DNA of 64,000 nt from contig CANLSF010000004.1 of assembly GCA_947493695.1 (NCBI GenBank), positions 434,001-498,000 of the forward strand, given 5' to 3'. Within the stretch, counting starts at the first letter, position 1. Every line of letters starts with the position of its first letter. This document shows, piece by piece, positions 2,711-62,486 of this stretch. Origin of the DNA: an uncultured Kiloniellaceae bacterium (GTDB lineage: Bacteria; Pseudomonadota; Alphaproteobacteria; Kiloniellales; Kiloniellaceae). The translations under genes were made by a program, and so were the position numbers. The notes beneath the pieces are model-generated. The model was not told where the DNA came from. It did no database searches and saw only the letters and a list, made by a program, of their open reading frames with translations.

Positions 2711-3853
2711 CTATCGCTTGTGACCGGTATGCAGCTTGGCTTCGAGCCAGATGCTGTACCGGGACATGCCGAAACAGAATACCCAATAGATAACCGCCAC
2801 AAAGGCATAAGACTCATGGATGAGCCCGATCCAGTTGGCGTCAGTGACAACGGTTTTGGCGATACCGAGCAGATCGAACAGGCCGATGATCAGCACCAGT
2901 GAGGTGTCCTTGAACAGGCCAATGAAGGTGTTCACGATCCCCGGAATGACAATCCGCAAGGCCTGCGGAAGGATGATGAAGTACATCATTTTCCAGAAAC
3001 CCAGCCCCATTGCAGCCGCCGCTTCATACTGGCCTTTTGGAATTGCCTGCAGCCCCCCTCGGATCACTTCGGCCATGTAAGCCGCAGAGAAGAGCGAAAC
3101 GCCAATTAGACACCGCAAGAGCTTATCGAAGTTCACACCTTCAGGCAGGAACAGCGGCACCATCACAGACGACATAAAGAGGATGGTGATCAGCGGGACG
3201 CCGCGTACAAACTCGATGAAGGTCACGCACATGGCGCGAACGATCGGCATATTGGAGCGCCGGCCAAGGGCCAGGGCGACGCCGATGGGAAGCGAAGCAA
3301 CGATACCCGTCACCCCGATCACCATTGTCAGCAGAAGCCCGCCCCATTGCGGTGTCTCCACAGTCTGCAGCAGAGCGTCCTGCCCGCTTCCGGTTCCGCT
3401 CAACAGGAAGAAACCGGTGATCGGCAGCAAGGCGGTGTTGATGAACAGAAGCTTCCGGAAAGGAATATTGTCAAACAACACCGGCAGCACTGCCAGGATC
3501 AGAACCAGCGCTGTGGCGTAGACACGCCAAAGTTCGTCTGGCGGATAGAAGCCGTAGAGGAACTGGTTAAACCGGACATCGATGAGCGCCCAACAGGCGC
3601 CTGCCGATGCACAGTCCGTCCGCGATGCACCTTCAAAATCGGCATCGATAAATGCCCAGAAGAAAATCGGCGGAATGGCGCTGTACAGGAGATAAAGCGC
3701 CAGAATCGTGAGGATAGAGTTGGGAATGCTGGAGAAAAGATTGGTCTTTAGCCAACCAACAAACCCGACAGTTCCCGGAGGCGGCGGTAGGTCCGGGTGC
3801 TGTCCCGGAGGATAATGCTGCCCTGGGGCGTTACTTGGTGTGACGTCAGTCAT
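2711..3853 (-). CDS. aapM: General L-amino acid ABC transporter permease AapM
   Basis: A 380-residue inner-membrane permease. The N-terminus is Pro-rich and cytoplasmic ([17 protein letters not shown]), followed by hydrophobic segments and the HisM-type EAA region [22 protein letters not shown]. The Cys-containing loop [22 protein letters not shown] followed by YGFYPP, which precedes further membrane segments, is characteristic of AapM/BztC proteins rather than the short HisM type. It pairs with AapQ to form the translocation channel. Spacing is 13 nt to aapQ and 11 nt to aapP, consistent with a single transcript. Confidence 0.92.
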
Positions 3854-3866
3854 TTATCCGCCCCCC

Positions 3867-5051
3867 TTACCGTTCAACCAGCGCAATGCGCTTGTTGTAA
3901 TAGTTCATCATCATCGAGATCAGCAGGCTGATACTCAGGTAAACCAGCATGGTGATCATGATAATCTCGATCGCCTGTCCGGTTTGGTTCAGCGAAGTGC
4001 CACCGAACGTCGAAACCAGATCGGGATACCCGATTGCAATCGCCAGCGAAGAGTTCTTTGTGAGATTGAGATACTGGCTGGTCAAAGGTGGAACAATCAC
4101 CCGCAGTGCCTGCGGCAGGATGATCATACGTGTCGTCCAACTCGGCTTGAGGCCAAGCGAGAAGGCAGCTTCCGTTTGACCGTGGCTCACCGCCTGGATA
4201 CCGGCCCGTACGATCTCGGCGATGAAGGCCGCCGTGTAGACCGTCAGTGCAAACCACAACGCCACGAACTCCGGCCTGAGAACCATGCCGCCCTTAAAGT
4301 TGAAGCCTTTCAGCTCGGCATAATCATATGTCACCGGAAATCCGGTGATTGCAGCCGCCAGCAGCGGTAAACCGAGGATCAGAGCGACCGAAGTCCAGAA
4401 GACTGGAAAGGTCTGACCGGTCGCCTCCTGCCGCTTCTTGGCCATCTTCGACATGATCGGCACGATGATCAGTGCAACGACGAGTGCAACAACGATCAAT
4501 CCGAAGCCGTCACCGGCGATCGGTTCGGGCATATACAGGCCGCGCTTGTTGAGATGGAAGGTTTCGCCAAAGAAAACGATACTCTGTTTCGGATGCGGCA
4601 ATGTAATCAGGACCGCATACCAGAACAGGATCTGCAGCAGCAACGGAATGTTCCGCAGAATTTCGACGTACCAGTAAACCAGCTTGCTTACGAGCCAGTT
4701 TTTCGAAAGCCGCAAGACGCCCATAACAACGCCCAGGATCGTTGCTGCGAATATTCCCGCTATTGCCACTGAAAGCGTATTGAAGAGGCCTACGAAGAAT
4801 ACACGACCGTGGGTGTTGGTTGCCTCATACGGAATGAGCGACATCGCAATGTCGTAGCCTGCTGGCGAATCCAAAAAGCCAAAACCGGTCGAAATGCCTA
4901 GCGCATCAAGGTTCCGAACTGTGTTGGTGCCGATATATATGAAGAATACGACGACCAGAAAGAAAGCCAAAGCCTGGAAGATAATCGCTCTGGTTCGCTG
5001 ATCGTTCAGGAGTGAGCCCCGTTTCGGGCCATCTATAGTTTCTGTAGCCAT
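3867..5051 (-). CDS. aapQ: General L-amino acid ABC transporter permease AapQ
   Basis: A 394-residue inner-membrane permease of the HisM family in its long AapQ/BztB form. Visible features are the first membrane segment IIFQALAFFLVVVFFIYIGTN, the block EILRNIPLLLQILFWYAVL (here split from the following segment), and the C-terminal EAA loop TEAAFSLGLKPSWTTRMIILP followed by LTKNSSLAIAIGYPDLV. It forms the heterodimeric channel with AapM. A 137-nt gap with a strong stem-loop separates it from the upstream binding-protein gene, so it is probably expressed below the level of aapJ. Confidence 0.92.
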   Translation of the reverse strand: MATETIDGPKRGSLLNDQRTRAIIFQALAFFLVVVFFIYIGTNTVRNLDALGISTGFGFLDSPAGYDIAMSLIPYEATNTHGRVFFVGLFNTLSVAIAGIFAATILGVVMGVLRLSKNWLVSKLVYWYVEILRNIPLLLQILFWYAVLITLPHPKQSIVFFGETFHLNKRGLYMPEPIAGDGFGLIVVALVVALIIVPIMSKMAKKRQEATGQTFPVFWTSVALILGLPLLAAAITGFPVTYDYAELKGFNFKGGMVLRPEFVALWFALTVYTAAFIAEIVRAGIQAVSHGQTEAAFSLGLKPSWTTRMIILPQALRVIVPPLTSQYLNLTKNSSLAIAIGYPDLVSTFGGTSLNQTGQAIEIIMITMLVYLSISLLISMMMNYYNKRIALVER

Positions 5052-6706: not shown

Positions 6707-7903
6707 ATGTCACCTTCATCCCGGAAGCCCGATACCCAGCTTGCTCATCTCGGCCGCGAGCCTAAAAACCAGCACGGTGCCGTTAATCCACCGGTTTATC
6801 ACGCATCTACCATCCTGTTCGAAGACGTGGCGAGCCTACGCGCAGCCAAAGACGTTCGTATGGACAGAAACGCTGTTACTTACGGCCGTGCGGGTACGCC
6901 GACGACAATGGCCCTGCAGGATTCGGTGGCGGCGCTGGAAGGCGGATATGGCGGAATCGCAGTCTCTTCGGGGCTTGCAGCCGTCACAGCGAGCATCATG
7001 GCGCTGGTTCAGGCTGGCGATCACGTTTTGATGACAGACTCCGTCTATGGCCCGGCCCGCGCATTCTGCGATTCCACACTGGCCAGATTCGGTGTCGAAA
7101 CGACTTATTACGATCCTCTGATCGCCGGCGGTATCGCGTCCCTGATCAAAGAGAACACCAAGATAGTTTTTACGGAGTCACCCGGCTCACAGACATTTGA
7201 AGTTCAGGATATTCCGGCAATTGCCGAAGCAGCGCATGCCGCCGGTGCCGCTGTCCTGATGGACAACACCTGGGGAACCCCGCTCTACTGCAAATCCTTT
7301 GAGTTGGGAGTCGACGTGTCGATTCACGCGGGAACCAAGTATATCGTTGGCCATTCCGACGCGATGCTCGGCATGATCGTGACCAACGAAGCCCACTACG
7401 AAAATGTCCGCCGCTGCGTTATGTCGCTCGGGCACAGCGCGGCACCGGATGATGTATTCCTGGGTCTGCGCGGTTTCAGGACTCTGTCCGTTCGTCTGGA
7501 GCGGCATCACAAAACGGGCCTGGCTCTGGCGAGCTGGCTGCAAAACCGTCCAGAAGTGGCCCGGGTCATGCACCCTGCCCTGCCCGACGATCCCGGTCAT
7601 GCGCTTTGGAAACGCGATTTCTCAGGGGCCTGCGGTCTCTTTGGTCTGGTGTTGCATCCGGTCGCGCAGTCAGCGCTCGAAGCGATGCTGGATCATCTGG
7701 AGCTCTACGGCATGGGATACAGCTGGGGTGGCTTCGAAAGCCTGATTATCCCGACCGATCCTGCATCGATTCGCACCGCGACAGAGTGGAACGCACAGGG
7801 ACCGGCGTTGAGAATTCATGCCGGCCTTGAAGATATCGACGACCTGATTGCAGATCTGGAGGCGGGTTTTGAGCGTCTTAACCGCGCCGTGGCAGCAGAA
7901 TAA
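6707..7903 (+). CDS. metC: Cystathionine beta-lyase
   Basis: A 398-residue PLP enzyme of the Cys/Met metabolism (trans-sulfuration) family, which cleaves cystathionine to homocysteine, pyruvate and ammonia in methionine synthesis. Visible features are the N-terminal substrate block TQLAHLGR and NPPVYHASTILFED, the region YGRAGTPTTMALQDSVAALEG in the usual phosphate-binding area, and the PLP lysine K211 in IHAGTKYIVGHSD. The Trp/Gly-rich end GYSWGGFESLI is typical of MetC rather than MetB. The frame is open upstream, but the ATG at MSPSSRK gives the family's normal N-terminus. It is followed closely by hisI. It could also act on cystine or related thioethers. Confidence 0.9.
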   Translation: MSPSSRKPDTQLAHLGREPKNQHGAVNPPVYHASTILFEDVASLRAAKDVRMDRNAVTYGRAGTPTTMALQDSVAALEGGYGGIAVSSGLAAVTASIMALVQAGDHVLMTDSVYGPARAFCDSTLARFGVETTYYDPLIAGGIASLIKENTKIVFTESPGSQTFEVQDIPAIAEAAHAAGAAVLMDNTWGTPLYCKSFELGVDVSIHAGTKYIVGHSDAMLGMIVTNEAHYENVRRCVMSLGHSAAPDDVFLGLRGFRTLSVRLERHHKTGLALASWLQNRPEVARVMHPALPDDPGHALWKRDFSGACGLFGLVLHPVAQSALEAMLDHLELYGMGYSWGGFESLIIPTDPASIRTATEWNAQGPALRIHAGLEDIDDLIADLEAGFERLNRAVAAE

Positions 7904-7948
7904 ACCTCAGCGTTTTATGTGGTGAAAACAGAACCGGACACTCCGAAG

Positions 7949-8359
7949 ATGACAACCAACGCCCCCACTCTTCCAGCATCGCTGGCACAGGAAGTCGCCT
8001 TTGACGACAAAGGCCTGATTGCGGCTATCGCCCAGCAGCACGACAGCGGCGAGATCCTTATGATGGCATGGATGAACCGGGAGTCCCTCGCGGAGACCAT
8101 TGCGACAGGTCAAGTCTGCTATTGGTCGCGCTCGCGTCAGAGCCTTTGGCGAAAAGGCGAAAGTTCGGGGCAGACTCAAAAACTGGTCGAACTGGCGCTC
8201 GACTGTGATGGCGATTGCCTGCTTCTGAAGGTCGACCAGACAGGCGTTGCCTGTCACACAGGTCGTCGGAGCTGTTTCTACCAGGTCTTGTCAGATGACG
8301 GACGTCTGGAAGATCGCTTGCCGGTCTTGAAGGATCCCAAAGATCTGTACGGGAAGTAG
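7949..8359 (+). CDS. hisI: Phosphoribosyl-AMP cyclohydrolase
   Basis: A 136-residue single-domain HisI that opens the adenine ring of phosphoribosyl-AMP in histidine synthesis, without the fused HisE domain seen in enterobacteria. Diagnostic blocks are ILMMAWMNRESL, CYWSRSRQSLWRKGESSG and the metal-binding region LDCDGDCLLLKV followed by GVACHTGRRSCFY. GTG at 7919 is an in-frame alternative start adding ten residues. It is not in a histidine operon here. Its TAG is immediately followed by the ATG of modA, suggesting coupled translation. Confidence 0.93.
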   Translation: MTTNAPTLPASLAQEVAFDDKGLIAAIAQQHDSGEILMMAWMNRESLAETIATGQVCYWSRSRQSLWRKGESSGQTQKLVELALDCDGDCLLLKVDQTGVACHTGRRSCFYQVLSDDGRLEDRLPVLKDPKDLYGK

Positions 8360-11525: not shown

Positions 11526-12695
11526 ATGTCTAAGAAAAACACAGCGGATAAATCCGCAGCAAAGACCCTCGGAAATAAGCTCAGCCGCCGTACCGTCCTT
11601 CGCGGCGCCGCCGCCACCGGTGCGGTCCTTGCCGCGCCGGCGATTATCAGTCGTCGCGCGCTCGCGTCGTCCGGTGAAATCAACGTTCTCATGTGGTCGG
11701 ACTACCTGCCCCCTGAGTTCATCGAAGGCTTCAAAGCCGACACCGGCATCACCATCAATCACACCGGCGTCGGCTCCAACGAAGAGATCATCAACAAGAT
11801 GAAGGCCACCAAGGGCCGTGGCTTTGATCTCGTCAGCCCCACCAACATGCGCTCGCCACAGTGGATCGAACTGGGCCTGCTTCAGCCCTTCGATATGTCC
11901 AAGGTCAACACCAGCACGCTGAACCCGGCCATGGTCAACGTCGGTGAGACCGAATGGAACTTTGAAGGCAAAGGCTCCCACTGGTTACCACAGCTCTGGG
12001 GCACCGAAGCCGTCGCATGGCGCACGGACCTCTGGCAGCCTGAAGGCGGTGTGCCGAGCTATGGCGATATCTGGTCCCCCGAGATGAAGGGTAAGACCAT
12101 GGGACGCCCGCACTCGATGATGGTTGGCGCAGGCCTCTATCTGGAAACCACGGGTGAACTCGCCCCTGGCTCCATGCGCAAGGCCTATGACAGCGAAGAA
12201 ATCATGCGGCCGATCTGGGAAAAGGTCACCAAGTTCTGCATTGAGAACAAGGAACAGGTGAAGCTGTTCTGGAACGATGCCGACAGCCAGAAGAACGGCC
12301 TGCTCAATGACGGTGTTGTGGTCGGGCAGACCTGGGACGGACCTATCCTGGCTATGAAGACGGCTGGCGAGCCCGTCACCTATCAGGCACCCAAGGAAGG
12401 TGCACTTGCCTGGGTTGATGGTATTGCTGTTCCGATCGGCGCGGAAAACATGGATGAAATCTATGCCTTCCTCGAGTACAGCTTCCGTCCAGAAAATGGT
12501 GGACTGACCGCAGACAAGACCGGCTACAATTCGGCTGTTCTCGGCGCTGATCAGCACATTTCAGCCGCATCGAAGAAGAACTTTGCAGAGGCCTATCCCG
12601 GCGATGCACTGACCAATCTCTTCCCATGGCCAAAAGAGCCTCAGTGGTATGCAGATGTTCGGACCGAATACCGCAACAAATTCGTCAATGCCTGA
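11526..12695 (+). CDS. Tat-exported spermidine/putrescine-type binding protein
   Basis: A 389-residue PotD/PotF-family solute-binding protein. The N-terminus has a twin-arginine signal (SRRTVLRGAAATGAVLAAPA, residues about 20-39), so it is exported folded. The mature start GEINVLMWSDYLPPEFIEGF followed by TGITINHTGVGSNEEIINKM is typical of polyamine-binding proteins. The true ligand could be another amine or an iron chelate-like compound, since this family is diverse; the operon composition supports a polyamine type. It is the first gene of a four-gene ABC operon. A stem-loop follows 35 nt after its stop. Confidence 0.85.
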   Translation: MSKKNTADKSAAKTLGNKLSRRTVLRGAAATGAVLAAPAIISRRALASSGEINVLMWSDYLPPEFIEGFKADTGITINHTGVGSNEEIINKMKATKGRGFDLVSPTNMRSPQWIELGLLQPFDMSKVNTSTLNPAMVNVGETEWNFEGKGSHWLPQLWGTEAVAWRTDLWQPEGGVPSYGDIWSPEMKGKTMGRPHSMMVGAGLYLETTGELAPGSMRKAYDSEEIMRPIWEKVTKFCIENKEQVKLFWNDADSQKNGLLNDGVVVGQTWDGPILAMKTAGEPVTYQAPKEGALAWVDGIAVPIGAENMDEIYAFLEYSFRPENGGLTADKTGYNSAVLGADQHISAASKKNFAEAYPGDALTNLFPWPKEPQWYADVRTEYRNKFVNA

Positions 12696-12907: not shown

Positions 12908-13999
12908 ATGAGCGTAGATGTAAAACTGGAAGACGTCTGGGTCCGGTTCGGCAGCTTTACGGCTGTTAAGAACGCCAACGTGACAATCCGGGGCGGCGAG
13001 TTTTTCAGTTTTCTGGGGCCGTCCGGCTGCGGAAAAACGACGCTGCTTCGCTGCATCTCGGGCTTTCAGGAGCCGACGGACGGCAAAATCCTGTTCGACG
13101 GCAAGAATATGGCCGGGATCGGACCGAACAAGCGACCGACTGCCCTGATTTTCCAGAATCTGGCCCTCTTTCCGCTAATGTCGGTTGCGGACAACATTGC
13201 CTTTGGGCTTGAAGTCCGCGGCATCGGGAAAGCGCAGCGCCGAAAGAAAGCCGACGAGCTGCTGGATCTGATCGCCCTGCCGGGACAGGGCGACAAGAAG
13301 GTCGGCGAGCTTTCAGGCGGTCAGAAACAGCGCGTCGCGATAGCACGGGCACTTGCAGTGGAACCTGAAATCCTGCTGCTCGACGAGCCGCTTTCAGCCC
13401 TTGATCTGAAACTGCGCCAGCATATGCGCACTGAATTACGCGAAATTCAGAAGCGCGTGGGCATCACCTTCATCTATATCACTCATGACCAGGGCGAAGC
13501 CCTGACGATGTCCGACCGGGTCGCCGTCATGAGTGAAGGCGTCATTGAACAGGTGGCTGACAGCGTCACGCTGTATGACCGCCCGGAGAAACCCTTCGTC
13601 GCGTCTTTTGTTGGTGAAAACAACGACTTCCGGGGGCGCGTAACGAGCGTGTCTGAAGGCTATGCCGAAGTCGAAACCTCCGAAGGTCTTTTTCGGGGAC
13701 GCGTTTCCGAAGGCAATCGGGATGCTCTCTCGGGCTCGGGACCTGCATCGATCTTTGTTCGGCCAGAAGCGCTTAAGATCGCCGGAACCGCGACCGAGGC
13801 AAGTAATGCCTTTGAAGCCAACCTCCTGCAGGAGGAGTTTGAAGGCAATATGCGCCACCTCGTTCTTGAGTCGAAAGGCGGGCAACGCCTTCGCATGACG
13901 CTGGTGAACGATGGCCATGTCCTGGATTACGGTCCGGGGTCGACCGTGCCGGTCGTGTTCAATCCGGAACTCGCCATCGTATTGCCGCAAGAGGCTTAA
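12908..13999 (+). CDS. Polyamine-type ABC transporter ATP-binding protein (PotA-like)
   Basis: A 363-residue ATPase with Walker A GPSGCGKTTLL, Q-loop IFQNLALFPLMSV, signature LSGGQKQRVAIARAL, Walker B ILLLDEPLSALDL and switch region YITHDQGEAL. The C-terminal part is a TOBE_2 region typical of PotA (VGENNDFRGRV, SIFVRPEALKI). The ATG at 12908, giving MSVDVKLEDVWVRF, is the expected N-terminus; the frame is open 30 nt further upstream. It is second in the operon and precedes two permease genes. Confidence 0.9.
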   Translation: MSVDVKLEDVWVRFGSFTAVKNANVTIRGGEFFSFLGPSGCGKTTLLRCISGFQEPTDGKILFDGKNMAGIGPNKRPTALIFQNLALFPLMSVADNIAFGLEVRGIGKAQRRKKADELLDLIALPGQGDKKVGELSGGQKQRVAIARALAVEPEILLLDEPLSALDLKLRQHMRTELREIQKRVGITFIYITHDQGEALTMSDRVAVMSEGVIEQVADSVTLYDRPEKPFVASFVGENNDFRGRVTSVSEGYAEVETSEGLFRGRVSEGNRDALSGSGPASIFVRPEALKIAGTATEASNAFEANLLQEEFEGNMRHLVLESKGGQRLRMTLVNDGHVLDYGPGSTVPVVFNPELAIVLPQEA

Positions 14000-14020: not shown

Positions 14021-14956
14021 ATGACCATGGCTTTGACCGCGTGGTTTCAACACTTCTTCAAGAAGAACGGCATCGTTCTTTCGATATATCTGATGTCTGC
14101 CGTGCTGCTGTGGATGGTCATTATGATCATTCTGCCGCAGGTCTTCATGCTCGATTTTTCCTTCAGGTTTAATCTACCGCCCGGCAAGATCGGTGGGGAA
14201 GAAGACGTCTACACCATTTCGAATTACCGCTTCCTCCTGTTCGGCAGCCCGGGGAATCCGGATCCCTATAACGTCATCGACACGACGGTATTCTTCCGGA
14301 CGATCCTCGCCGCCATCTTCGTGACGGTCTTCGATCTGTTGCTTTGCTACCCAATCGCCTATGCGCTGGCGATTGTGGCCAAGGGCGGGACCGCCCGCCT
14401 CATGGTGCTTTCCTTGATCGTGCCTTTTTGGATTAACGAAATCCTGCGCGCTTTTGCGTTCCGCATTCTCTTCGGCTCCAGCGGCGTCATCAATACGGTT
14501 GGCATGACCCTGGGCCTCTGGGATACGCCGTTTGATTTCATCAAGGCGGACATCGCGCTCTATGCCGGTCTCGGTTACGCCTACATTCTTTTGATGATCT
14601 TTCCGATCTACAACGCCATGGAGAGCCTTGACCGTAATCAACTGGAGGCGGCCCGGGACCTGGGCGCGCAATGGTGGCGGATACACTGGCGCATCGTTAT
14701 TCCCTTCTCGAAGCCCGGTATTGCTTCAGGCTGCACCATGGTGTTCATGCTTTCCGCGGGCGCGCTGGCCGCGCCGCAGATTCTTGGCGGACCGAGCAGT
14801 CTCTGGTTTACCCAGATCATCTATCAGTGGTTCAACACCGGCGGTAACTGGCCCAGAGGTTCGGCCTATGCCATCGTCCTCCTTGCCGTATGCATTCTGT
14901 TCGTTCTGTTCATGATGCGAGTCTTCAAGGTTCGTATTGGAGAGATCGGCCGATGA
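14021..14956 (+). CDS. Polyamine-type ABC transporter permease (PotB-like)
   Basis: A 311-residue inner-membrane protein with about six hydrophobic segments and the binding-protein-dependent permease loop NQLEAARDLGAQWWRIHWRIVIP. The family-typical ILGGPSSLWFTQIIYQWF stretch is near the C-terminus. A second ATG two codons downstream is an equally possible start. Its stop overlaps the start of the next permease gene by 4 nt (ATGA), indicating translational coupling and a one-to-one partner. Confidence 0.9.
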   Translation: MTMALTAWFQHFFKKNGIVLSIYLMSAVLLWMVIMIILPQVFMLDFSFRFNLPPGKIGGEEDVYTISNYRFLLFGSPGNPDPYNVIDTTVFFRTILAAIFVTVFDLLLCYPIAYALAIVAKGGTARLMVLSLIVPFWINEILRAFAFRILFGSSGVINTVGMTLGLWDTPFDFIKADIALYAGLGYAYILLMIFPIYNAMESLDRNQLEAARDLGAQWWRIHWRIVIPFSKPGIASGCTMVFMLSAGALAAPQILGGPSSLWFTQIIYQWFNTGGNWPRGSAYAIVLLAVCILFVLFMMRVFKVRIGEIGR

Positions 14957-16236
14957 AATCCGCACAGTTCCTGCGCGTCGTTCTCGGCGCATACATCGTC
15001 CTGTTCTTTGCCTATCTCTTCGGCCCGCTCATTCTGATGAGCATCACGGCGTTCAACAGTTCGGAGTTTCCACGTGTAACCCCTTGGGATTGCTTCTCGA
15101 CCGACTGGTTTAATGTTCTGGTCGAAGACAAGCGCATCATGACCGGCCTGCGAAACAGCATCATTATCGGTTTCGGCGTCGTCTGCCTCTCGGTCCCGAT
15201 AGGCTTGGCGGCGGCTATGATGCTCACCCAGGTCGGACGCCGGATGAAGTCCTTCTTCTACACCGTTGTGGTGTCACCAATTCTGGTACCCGGTGTGGTG
15301 CTCGGCATTTCGACTCTGATCTTCTGGGACCGTTTGGGCACCATGTTCGACGCGAGCTACAACTCGGTCTTCTATAACGGAATTTTCCTTTCTATTCTGG
15401 GCCAGTCGACCTTCGTATCCGCCTACTGCATGCTGGTCTTCACGGCGCGCCTGCAACGTTTCGACCCGGTACAGGAAGAAGCGGCACTTGATCTCGGAGC
15501 GACCAACGCACAGGCCTTCGTAAAGATCCTGCTGCCGTTCCTGAAGCCAGCAATCGGATCCGCCGCCGTGATGGCGTTTCTCGCATCTTTCGAGAACTAC
15601 AACACCACGATCTTTACGATTGTCTCAGAGAGCACCCTGACGACCGTGTTGGCCAGCAAAGTGCGTTTCGGCATCAACCCTTCGATTTCGGCGCTCGCGG
15701 TCATCATCGTGGTCTTAACCTTGATCTGCGCGATTATCCACGAGGCGATGAAGCGTCAGGAAGCAAGACGGGCTCAAGCGGCCAAGGACGAACGGGTCGT
15801 CGCCGACTATGCAAGTGTCGGCCGCTTTGCAACCAGCCCCTGGGGCATCGTGCTTCTGGTCTTCCTTGCCGGATTGGGAACGATTTGGCTCGCAACGCGA
15901 TACGACACGGCATCCTGTAAAATGCGGCTACAGGACGAGCGTCAATTGCGTCTCGAACAATCCACACCGAGCACCCCTGCGGTTACACCCGGTGCTGCCA
16001 CACCGGGTACGACCACGCCGTCGACGACAACGCCAACGACGACGCCGTCAGGCAGCGAACCGGCTGCGAAACCCTACCAGGGTATCTTCGCTCCTCAGAA
16101 CCTCGATCAGGTTGCGCCTAAGGACGAGGGCGAAGCAGCGCCTGCAGGTGAAGGTAAGAGTGACGGAGAATCAAAGCCTTACCAGGGTATCTTCGCACCG
16201 CAAAACCTGGACAATGTAGCGCCTAAATCCGACTGA
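14953..16236 (+). CDS. PotC-like permease with extra membrane segment and repeat-bearing tail
   Basis: A 427-residue protein, about 150 residues longer than usual PotC proteins. Residues 1-270 are an ordinary PotC-type permease with the loop EEAALDLGATNAQAFVKILLP. After a basic linker (MKRQEARRAQAAKDER) there is a seventh hydrophobic segment (about 298-317, GIVLLVFLAGLGTIWLATRY). Then come a short charged region with Cys321, a Thr/Pro-rich stretch (337-372) and two near-identical 18-residue repeats (373-390 and 408-425). The positive-inside rule puts the tail in the periplasm; this is inference. The start overlaps the preceding permease by 4 nt. Confidence 0.88.
   Translation: MKSAQFLRVVLGAYIVLFFAYLFGPLILMSITAFNSSEFPRVTPWDCFSTDWFNVLVEDKRIMTGLRNSIIIGFGVVCLSVPIGLAAAMMLTQVGRRMKSFFYTVVVSPILVPGVVLGISTLIFWDRLGTMFDASYNSVFYNGIFLSILGQSTFVSAYCMLVFTARLQRFDPVQEEAALDLGATNAQAFVKILLPFLKPAIGSAAVMAFLASFENYNTTIFTIVSESTLTTVLASKVRFGINPSISALAVIIVVLTLICAIIHEAMKRQEARRAQAAKDERVVADYASVGRFATSPWGIVLLVFLAGLGTIWLATRYDTASCKMRLQDERQLRLEQSTPSTPAVTPGAATPGTTTPSTTTPTTTPSGSEPAAKPYQGIFAPQNLDQVAPKDEGEAAPAGEGKSDGESKPYQGIFAPQNLDNVAPKSD
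16069..16227 (+). repeat. Two direct 18-codon repeats in the PotC-like tail
   Basis: The units occupy 16069-16122 and 16174-16227 and both encode KPYQGIFAPQNLDxVAPK, with Q or N at the variable position. They are joined by 17 acidic/Gly-rich codons. The two DNA copies differ at several third positions although the protein is conserved, which suggests that selection has kept the peptide rather than that the copy is recent. Confidence 0.9.
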
Positions 16237-61088: not shown

Positions 61089-62486
61089 ATGGAACCCTTT
61101 GTTCTTTTCGGCCTCGTTTTGGTGCTGCTTTTGATCGGAACGCCGATCGCGGTATCTCTCGGGCTTTCCAGCGTCATCATCATTATCCTTTTCTCGAACG
61201 ACTCGCTGGCCTCCATCTCCTTGAAACTCTTCGAGGCAATGGAGCACTACACGCTGCTTGCGATTCCGTTTTTCATCCTCTCCTCCGCCTTCATGTCGAC
61301 CGGTGGTGTTGCAAAACGCATAATCCGATTTGCGATAGCCTGCGTCGGGCATGTGCGCGGCGGACTGGCCATTGCTTCCGTGTTTGCCTGTATGTTGTTT
61401 GCGGCGCTTTCGGGCTCCTCCCCGGCAACAGTGGTTGCCATCGGCACCATCGTGATCGCCGGCATGCGTGAGGTCGGCTACAGTAAGGAGTTCGCGGCAG
61501 GCGTCATCTGTAATGCCGGTACGCTCGGCATTCTGATTCCCCCTTCCATCGTTATGGTGGTCTATGCCGCCGCAACAGACGTCTCAGTGGGGCGGATGTT
61601 CATGGCCGGTGTGATCCCGGGCTTGCTCGCAGGCCTGATGCTGATGGGCGGAATTTACATTGTCGCCCGCATCAAAAAGCTTCCGGCGCAGCCCTGGGCC
61701 GGTGTGTCGGAGATCTTCGAGTCCGCCAGCGATGCCATCTGGGGACTTTTGCTGATCATCATTATCCTGGGCGGTATCTACGGCGGTATCTTCACACCGA
61801 CCGAAGCGGCCGCGGTTGCAGCGGTCTATGCCTTCGCCATAGCGCTTTTCGTTTATCGGGACATGGGGCCTCTGGTCGGTGTCGCCTGGCGAAAGGACGG
61901 TGAGTCCCTAGGCGGCAGCACAGTACGCAACCTCGGACAGATCGGCCTGCAGTTTATTCCTGCCTTCTTCCACAGGGACACCCAGAAGACGCTGGTCGAG
62001 GCCGGTAAAGTCACGCTGATGCTGATGTTTATCATCGCCAACGCCCTGCTGTTTGCCCATGTGCTGACCACTGAACGCATTCCACAGGCCATGACCGAAG
62101 CGATCATCGGTGCCGGTCTGGAGCCCTGGACGTTCCTGATCATTGTCAATCTGCTGCTCCTGGCGGGCGGTCAATTCATGGAGCCTTCGGGACTGCTGGT
62201 CATTGTCGCGCCGGTGGTCTTCCCGATCGCTATTCAACTGGGTATCGATCCGATCCATCTCGGCATCATCATGGTGGTGAATATGGAGATCGGAATGATC
62301 ACTCCACCAGTCGGACTGAACCTCTTCGTCACTTCTGGAATCACCGGGATGCCGTTGATGGACGTTGTGAAAGCGGCCATGCCCTGGCTCTCCATCCTCT
62401 TCGTCTTCCTGATCCTGGTCACCTACATCCCGGCTATCTCGACCTTCCTGCCCAATCTGATGTTCGGGCCGCAGATCGTGAACTAA
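61089..62486 (+). CDS. dctM: TRAP transporter large permease DctM
   Basis: A 465-residue polytopic protein that carries the sodium-coupled transport path. Family blocks are GTPIAVSLGLSSVI, FAALSGSSPATVVAIGTIVI, TLGILIPPSIVMVVYAAATD and GIFTPTEAAAVAAVYAF. A loop of about 50 residues in the middle (AWRKDGESLGGSTVRNLGQI) is present, as in long DctM forms. The block IEMGMITPPVGLNLF-like (here MEIGMITPPVGLNLFVTSG) is near the end. It is followed by a strong terminator. Confidence 0.95.
   Translation: MEPFVLFGLVLVLLLIGTPIAVSLGLSSVIIIILFSNDSLASISLKLFEAMEHYTLLAIPFFILSSAFMSTGGVAKRIIRFAIACVGHVRGGLAIASVFACMLFAALSGSSPATVVAIGTIVIAGMREVGYSKEFAAGVICNAGTLGILIPPSIVMVVYAAATDVSVGRMFMAGVIPGLLAGLMLMGGIYIVARIKKLPAQPWAGVSEIFESASDAIWGLLLIIIILGGIYGGIFTPTEAAAVAAVYAFAIALFVYRDMGPLVGVAWRKDGESLGGSTVRNLGQIGLQFIPAFFHRDTQKTLVEAGKVTLMLMFIIANALLFAHVLTTERIPQAMTEAIIGAGLEPWTFLIIVNLLLLAGGQFMEPSGLLVIVAPVVFPIAIQLGIDPIHLGIIMVVNMEIGMITPPVGLNLFVTSGITGMPLMDVVKAAMPWLSILFVFLILVTYIPAISTFLPNLMFGPQIVN

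Follow-up and report, generated by a model that had tools for sequence, protein, structure and literature searches.

PotC of the E. coli importer PotABC-PotD (PDB 8y5f, 8y5h, 8y5i, and 8zx1) is a permease of six helices whose loop P1 faces the periplasm (PMC11414716). The PotC-like protein described here, encoded in a 64,000-nucleotide stretch of DNA (the window), is related to E. coli PotC over residues 8 to 271 and has similar operon partners; however, the alignment stops after TM6, and the E. coli protein has a Gly (that of WQGF) at the position of C47 and neither an arm nor repeats. As listed in Table 1, the window gene lies last in an operon ordered substrate-binding protein (SBP), PotA, PotB, and PotC, and its start overlaps the stop of the PotB gene.

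By domain content and operon context, the window protein is a type I ABC importer permease of the PotC/PotI kind: PF00528 (BPD_transp_1; Pfam) matched residues 81 to 266 with 46 bits against a cut-off of 26.4, and an SBP, PotA, and PotB are all present. The best NCBIfam models, PotI (128.4 bits against 476) and PotC (115.6 against 326), both scored below their equivalog cut-offs, and none of the four operon proteins reached such a cut-off for a named polyamine subunit; thus, we call the permease PotC-like rather than a proven polyamine PotC. Its core is that of an ordinary type I importer permease. What distinguishes it from PotC is a seventh segment, TM7, predicted from hydropathy in place of the usual end on the cytoplasmic side after six helices, together with a pair of cysteines and a C-terminal arm. 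A previous sequence-only reading of the window had noticed about 150 residues beyond a normal PotC core, including one more hydrophobic segment and a Thr/Pro-rich spacer, and all of these were found, with PF00528 ending at residue 266 of 427 and TM7 running from W297 to T315. The tail is a real and conserved feature, more structured than that reading could tell, and the pairing of a P1 cysteine with a tail cysteine is new here.

No known domain in the window tail reached the cut-off of a Pfam or NCBIfam profile, and domain and profile searches found no SBP domain in it, the SBP being a separate gene. Two candidate matches were rejected: the IPTL-CTERM sorting signal (TIGR04174) scored 16.7 bits, below its cut-off of 20.5, and lay about 110 residues after the transmembrane segment, and a GspM profile match to the tail was below cut-off.

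Table 1. Features of the operon and of its PotC-like permease, by position in the window
Feature	Position	Strand	Basis
Cognate PotD/PotF-like SBP, twin-arginine signal	11526..12695	+	Domain/profile matches, alignment
PotA-like ATPase	12908..13999	+	Domain/profile matches
PotB-like permease	14021..14956	+	Domain/profile matches
PotC-like permease gene with C-terminal arm, 427 aa	14953..16236	+	ATG to TGA; PF00528 E 6.6e-12
C47 in periplasmic loop P1 (PWDC), only in tail-bearing PotC	15091..15093	+	P1 Cys in 38/38 tail-bearing, 0/42 tail-less PotC
Basic loop TM6-TM7, predicted cytoplasmic	15754..15840	+	6 K/R and 4 D/E in 29 residues
TM7, residues 297-315	15841..15897	+	Kyte-Doolittle mean 2.02 over 19 residues
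C322 after TM7, predicted disulfide partner of C47	15916..15918	+	Cys after TM7 in 38/38 tail-bearing sequences
Charged stretch, then Thr/Pro-rich linker	15919..16068	+	Sequence; 56 residues from Cys to first motif
Repeat 1, KPYQGIFAPQNLDQVAPK, residues 373-390	16069..16122	+	Copy comparison
Repeat 2, KPYQGIFAPQNLDNVAPK, residues 408-425	16174..16227	+	9 synonymous codons and 1 replaced codon relative to repeat 1

Repeats, motifs, and distribution of the tail

The two 18-residue copies reported by the sequence-only reading are identical at 17 of 18 residues, and its view that they have diverged synonymously while the peptide was kept by selection was borne out: among the 18 codons there are 10 differences, and nine of these are synonymous. 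Counting by sites agreed with this, giving 9 synonymous and 2 nonsynonymous differences over 11.8 and 42.2 sites, respectively (pS 0.76, pN 0.047), and the probability that 9 or more of 11 differences would be synonymous by chance is 4e-5. These data support purifying selection on the window repeats. Three peptide patterns searched in all six frames of the window returned only the two repeats, save for one partial match to one pattern at position 61779, in a transporter frame. Among copies within 14 proteins (16 pairs), 73 codons were identical, 53 synonymous, and 34 replaced, a count biased toward conservation because the copies were chosen by pattern.

Tail-bearing proteins typically have, in order, TM7, a nearby Cys, a charged stretch, a low-complexity linker, and a motif resembling [FY]GG[VI]FxPxNL, which is present one to three times. 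Copies typically read [FY]-x-[GNDS]-[VIA]-F-x-P-x-[NGST]-L, the window protein having YQGIFAPQNL twice, and linkers vary in both sequence and length. The motif was caught by script in 21 of 23 proteins, the first copy lying 40 to 70 residues past the Cys; the longer distances in L064 (85) and L058 (93) arose because the script caught the second copy only. Degenerate motifs were of the FGGAFGG type in three genomes (G294, G194, and G375) and NNIFGDPNL in a fourth (G360).

In ten tails (L057, L106, L111, L115, L119, L120, L121, and L123-L125), a half-motif, GPD[IV]F, comes after the charged stretch and ahead of the first full repeat. It may be a further copy that has degenerated, and it is absent from other Sneathiella-type tails (L116, L118, and L122). 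At L035 (Sneathiella glossodoripedis JCM 23214; 6991-8357 and 3691-4557), the PotC tail is split over two frames, the second with three motif copies, which is either a draft-assembly error or a real frameshift; the SBP frame on this contig is also short, at 288 aa.

The 38 distinct tail-bearing PotC genes all come from alphaproteobacterial records or from genomes of the window's class and belong to 11 or more family codes. Every one of them has TM7 and both cysteines, and most have recognizable motifs. Searches with a tail profile matched PotC only, save for four chance matches. Within the order, 3 of 61 genomes (own included) matched the profile; in the order of G101, 5 of 7 did; and in the phylum, 7 of 398 did, namely, 6 with a PotC match, all of the same class and own included, and 1 by chance. 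At the class level it matched 16 of 385 genomes (13 PotC, own included, and 3 chance), a figure to be read with the profile's capacity to miss divergent members, as it did at this level with G360 (L073), although TM7 and both cysteines are present there along with a degenerate motif. The class-level chance matches, L051-L053, were dropped, and the phylum-level one, L101, was judged by eye to be an RNase E-like frame. A contig scan gave 108 pattern matches, four of which were confirmed as tail-bearing PotC: an alphaproteobacterial MAG, Sneathiella glossodoripedis, an Ahrensia MAG, and Tistlia consotensis, the last with a protein identical to that of G056 and counted once.

Strong PotC matches were present in 16 of 25 genomes in the order of G100 (14 tail-bearing; G226 and G926 tail-less), in 7 of 120 in the family of G388 (six tail-bearing; L112 tail-less), and in 3 of 4 in the family of G294 (all tail-bearing and already in the set). 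When 58 related genomes were searched at the protein level, close same-family orthologues at 57 to 64% core identity lacked the tail, and two orthologues from other families of the order carried it. The sequence-only reading had named absence of the tail from close relatives as a refutation; in that respect the same-family orthologues speak against it, but a broad clade keeps it.

In a tree of PotC cores (44 rows, tail removed and L037 left out as a duplicate of L069), all 19 tail rows fell on one side of a single branch, requiring one state change; this branch (support, 86/73) was recovered by 88% of the 200 bootstrap replicates. The tree was rooted at the midpoint only, and L073 has a long branch. 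Quick trees of the SBP (42 rows) and PotB (43 rows), in which several long branches were flagged, likewise had one change of tail label, with SH-aLRT values of 77 and 64. Moreover, 17 distinct tail-bearing loci had enough flank, and all 17 had SBP, PotA, and PotB upstream of PotC and on its strand, a count made before later loci were added and without L034, whose contig starts inside PotB. As judged from these trees and gene orders, there was a single gain of the tail, or a single loss in the sister clade, and the tail moved with its operon. One genus code holds both a tail-less operon (L063 in G226) and tail-bearing operons (L056 and L057 in G100 and G398), and whole operons have therefore probably been exchanged or differentially retained. 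In two tail-less systems (L071 and L072, in G329 and G234), the SBP gene adjoins PotA on the opposite strand; thus, the sister clade does not have one fixed operon order.

The cysteine pair and predicted topology

C47 emerged from a screen for positions that are conserved in tail-bearing PotC and different in tail-less PotC. A Cys at this P1 position was present in 19 of 19 tail-bearing rows of the full alignment and in none of 25 tail-less rows, in 23 of 23 and 0 of 40 distinct ORFs, respectively, at the next count, and in 15 of 15 and 0 of 2 sequences gathered after the pattern had been seen. The resulting totals (Table 1) cover ORFs that are 230 residues or longer and contain an E[NS][YFV]NTT motif, where tail-bearing means more than 130 residues after that motif with a 19-residue hydropathy above 1.5, and the tail-less set is one hand-picked from the matches (40 regions plus search loci) rather than all PotC-like genes. 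A Cys after TM7 was found in 23 of 23 tail-bearing proteins, at an offset of 6 to 14 and mostly 6 to 8, and in 15 of 15 further ones at an offset of 7 to 8; the offsets of 10 to 14, in four proteins, arose because the hydropathy window fell early. In 5 of 19 proteins (L055, L058, L059, L061, and L064), this pair constitutes the sole two cysteines in the stretch examined. Since the tail-bearing proteins are related, the pairing represents one event strictly kept in the sample, not 38 independent ones.

Because E. coli PotC has six helices, a seventh would place the C terminus outside. The loop between TM6 and TM7 (20 to 37 residues) has a median of 6 K/R among 23 proteins, compared to 1 in the 12 residues after TM7, although the two stretches differ in length and K/R-rich sequence comes further on. 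Furthermore, the co-occurrence of a Cys in P1 with a Cys after TM7 predicts a disulfide and a tail on the periplasmic side. Helix count, K/R pattern, and cysteine co-occurrence together make a good case for the periplasmic location that the sequence-only reading had assigned to the tail, and the arm is probably pinned by a disulfide between C47 and C322.

Possible partners of the arm

The best explanation for these features, in our view, is that TM7 would carry the C-terminal arm of an alphaproteobacterial PotC-like subfamily into the periplasm, where the predicted C47-C322 disulfide would pin the root of the arm beside the transporter mouth. The charged stretch and flexible linker would then present one to three short hydrophobic docking motifs that bind the free, operon-encoded SBP weakly and more than once, so that the SBP would be kept near the permease and its local concentration raised without covalent fusion. 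We favor this account of a stapled, flexible arm docking its cognate SBP tentatively, rating it as a whole a little short of an even chance. The SBP is a putative partner: it is the operon's other predicted periplasmic protein and, therefore, the first candidate. A point against a tether is that sister systems at up to 64% identity function without the arm.

The sequence-only reading had tied the repeats to a Tat-exported binding protein. The twin-arginine signal of the SBP (PF10518, 21.2 bits, E 2.6e-4) fell just below the cut-off of 22.7, and RR-type N termini also occur in binding proteins of tail-less systems; thus, Tat export is not specific to tail-bearing systems and was rejected as a link to the arm. 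In PotD, the ligand set comprises W34, E36, Y37, D168, E171, W229, W255, and D257 (PMC11414716). In an alignment read by hand, W57, D59, Y60, W270, W296, and D298 of the window SBP align to this set, and H196 and M199 stand at D168 and E171; the substrate is therefore perhaps other than spermidine or putrescine, and it would be polyamine-like at best.

We compared 18 tail-bearing with 17 tail-less systems. Mean identities were 0.65 versus 0.56 for the SBP, 0.66 versus 0.64 for PotB, 0.63 versus 0.70 for PotA, and 0.62 versus 0.66 for the PotC core; without the divergent L075-L079, the tail-less means became 0.62, 0.72, 0.72, and 0.71, respectively, leaving an SBP gap of 0.65 versus 0.62, whereas the other subunits differ more and in the opposite direction. 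The greater likeness of tail-bearing SBPs is as expected if the SBP were under an extra constraint, although a fixed ligand could instead account for its slower change. SBP position 261 is N in 17 of 18 tail-bearing systems (S in L073) and in none of the 17 tail-less ones (Q or E). N261 aligns, as read by hand, to PotD E220, which contacts PotC in E. coli (PMC11414716). Clade-specific sites in the tail-bearing group numbered 13 in the SBP, 2 in PotA, 2 in PotB, and 10 in the PotC core, L073 being excluded from these counts and included for the identities and position 261. Two tail-less clades gave 33 and 30 SBP-specific sites, and other groups gave 8 to 22 in the PotC core; such SBP sites therefore do not single out the arm and were discarded as proof of arm contact. 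PotC and the SBP were each modeled in AlphaFold2 together with three relatives, but the models (mean pLDDT 39.7 and 36.1, respectively) were unusable, probably because the alignments were shallow, with four rows each.

An alternative that we consider unlikely is that the stapled periplasmic arm docks the transporter to some other periplasmic, outer-membrane, or cell-wall component. Periplasmic topology and a repeated hydrophobic motif would suit any docking partner, and the linker varies in length, with 40 to 70 residues from Cys to first motif where caught; however, the tail was seen only in PotC, in an operon where the SBP is the other protein predicted to be periplasmic, and the window tail matched no known domain at cut-off. 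The sequence-only reading had also raised contact of the repeats with the cell wall, for which this sequence analysis found no evidence. We likewise doubt that the arm acts within the transporter, its motifs folding onto PotBC or the docked SBP for gating and the disulfide serving as a redox-sensitive lock. The staple would hold the base of the arm at P1, which lies on the periplasmic side, as does the docking site of the SBP (PMC11414716), and tail-bearing PotC cores do have 10 clade-specific positions, but this number is ordinary beside those of other groups, and low-complexity linkers of unequal length speak against one precise docking geometry.

That TM7 is re-entrant or does not span the membrane, leaving the tail in the cytoplasm, is very improbable: K/R-rich sequence does follow not far past TM7, but its hydropathy is 1.6 to 2.8 over 19 residues in the tail-bearing set (for which a value above 1.5 had been required), there are few K/R in the next 12 residues, and the tail Cys co-occurs with one in periplasmic loop P1. 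Finally, a dispensable, neutrally drifting low-complexity extension, which the variable linker, the degenerate motifs in four genomes, and the tail-less sister clade might suggest, is scarcely credible given TM7 and the cysteine pair in 38 distinct genes of at least 11 family codes, most of them with motifs, and the excess of pS over pN in the window repeats.

Comparison with known systems

The sequence-only reading knew of no PotC described this way, and in the open-licence PMC literature searched we found none described with such a motif, disulfide, added helix or extension, or tethered SBP; beyond that literature, we know of no such PotC. The two diagnostic cysteines define a recognizable PotC-like subfamily, which the family models used here merge with ordinary PotC. 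The design of ABC importers raises the question of how a free SBP reaches its importer and why the two are fused in some systems. If the arm tethers the SBP, it would offer a natural, tunable system with one to three motifs and close arm-less relatives, and the effect of tethering on uptake would therefore be directly measurable. That a Gram-negative importer holds a soluble SBP by a multivalent linear-motif arm, set by a seventh helix and a disulfide lock, is a rather doubtful proposition that we put forward with caution; with equal reserve, such an arm may represent a noncovalent alternative to SBP fusion or lipidation.

NF043073 (MMSYN1_0195, 1,021 positions), which we take to be a mollicute model, describes a PotC-SBP fusion and is likewise a PotC with an extra C-terminal part; the window PotC matched its positions 7 to 257 and the window SBP its positions 604 to 676. 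In NF043073, however, the SBP itself is fused, whereas the window PotC has a short motif arm and its SBP is free. In OpuA and related importers, membrane-linked means hold binding domains near the translocator (PMC11065425). OpuA-type importers use covalent folded domains, in contrast to the linear motifs of the window arm. Importers of that type are not known to have a TM7-disulfide arrangement. In idea, the nearest analogues of the arm are the NF043073 fusion and the OpuA-type importers with fused binding domains.
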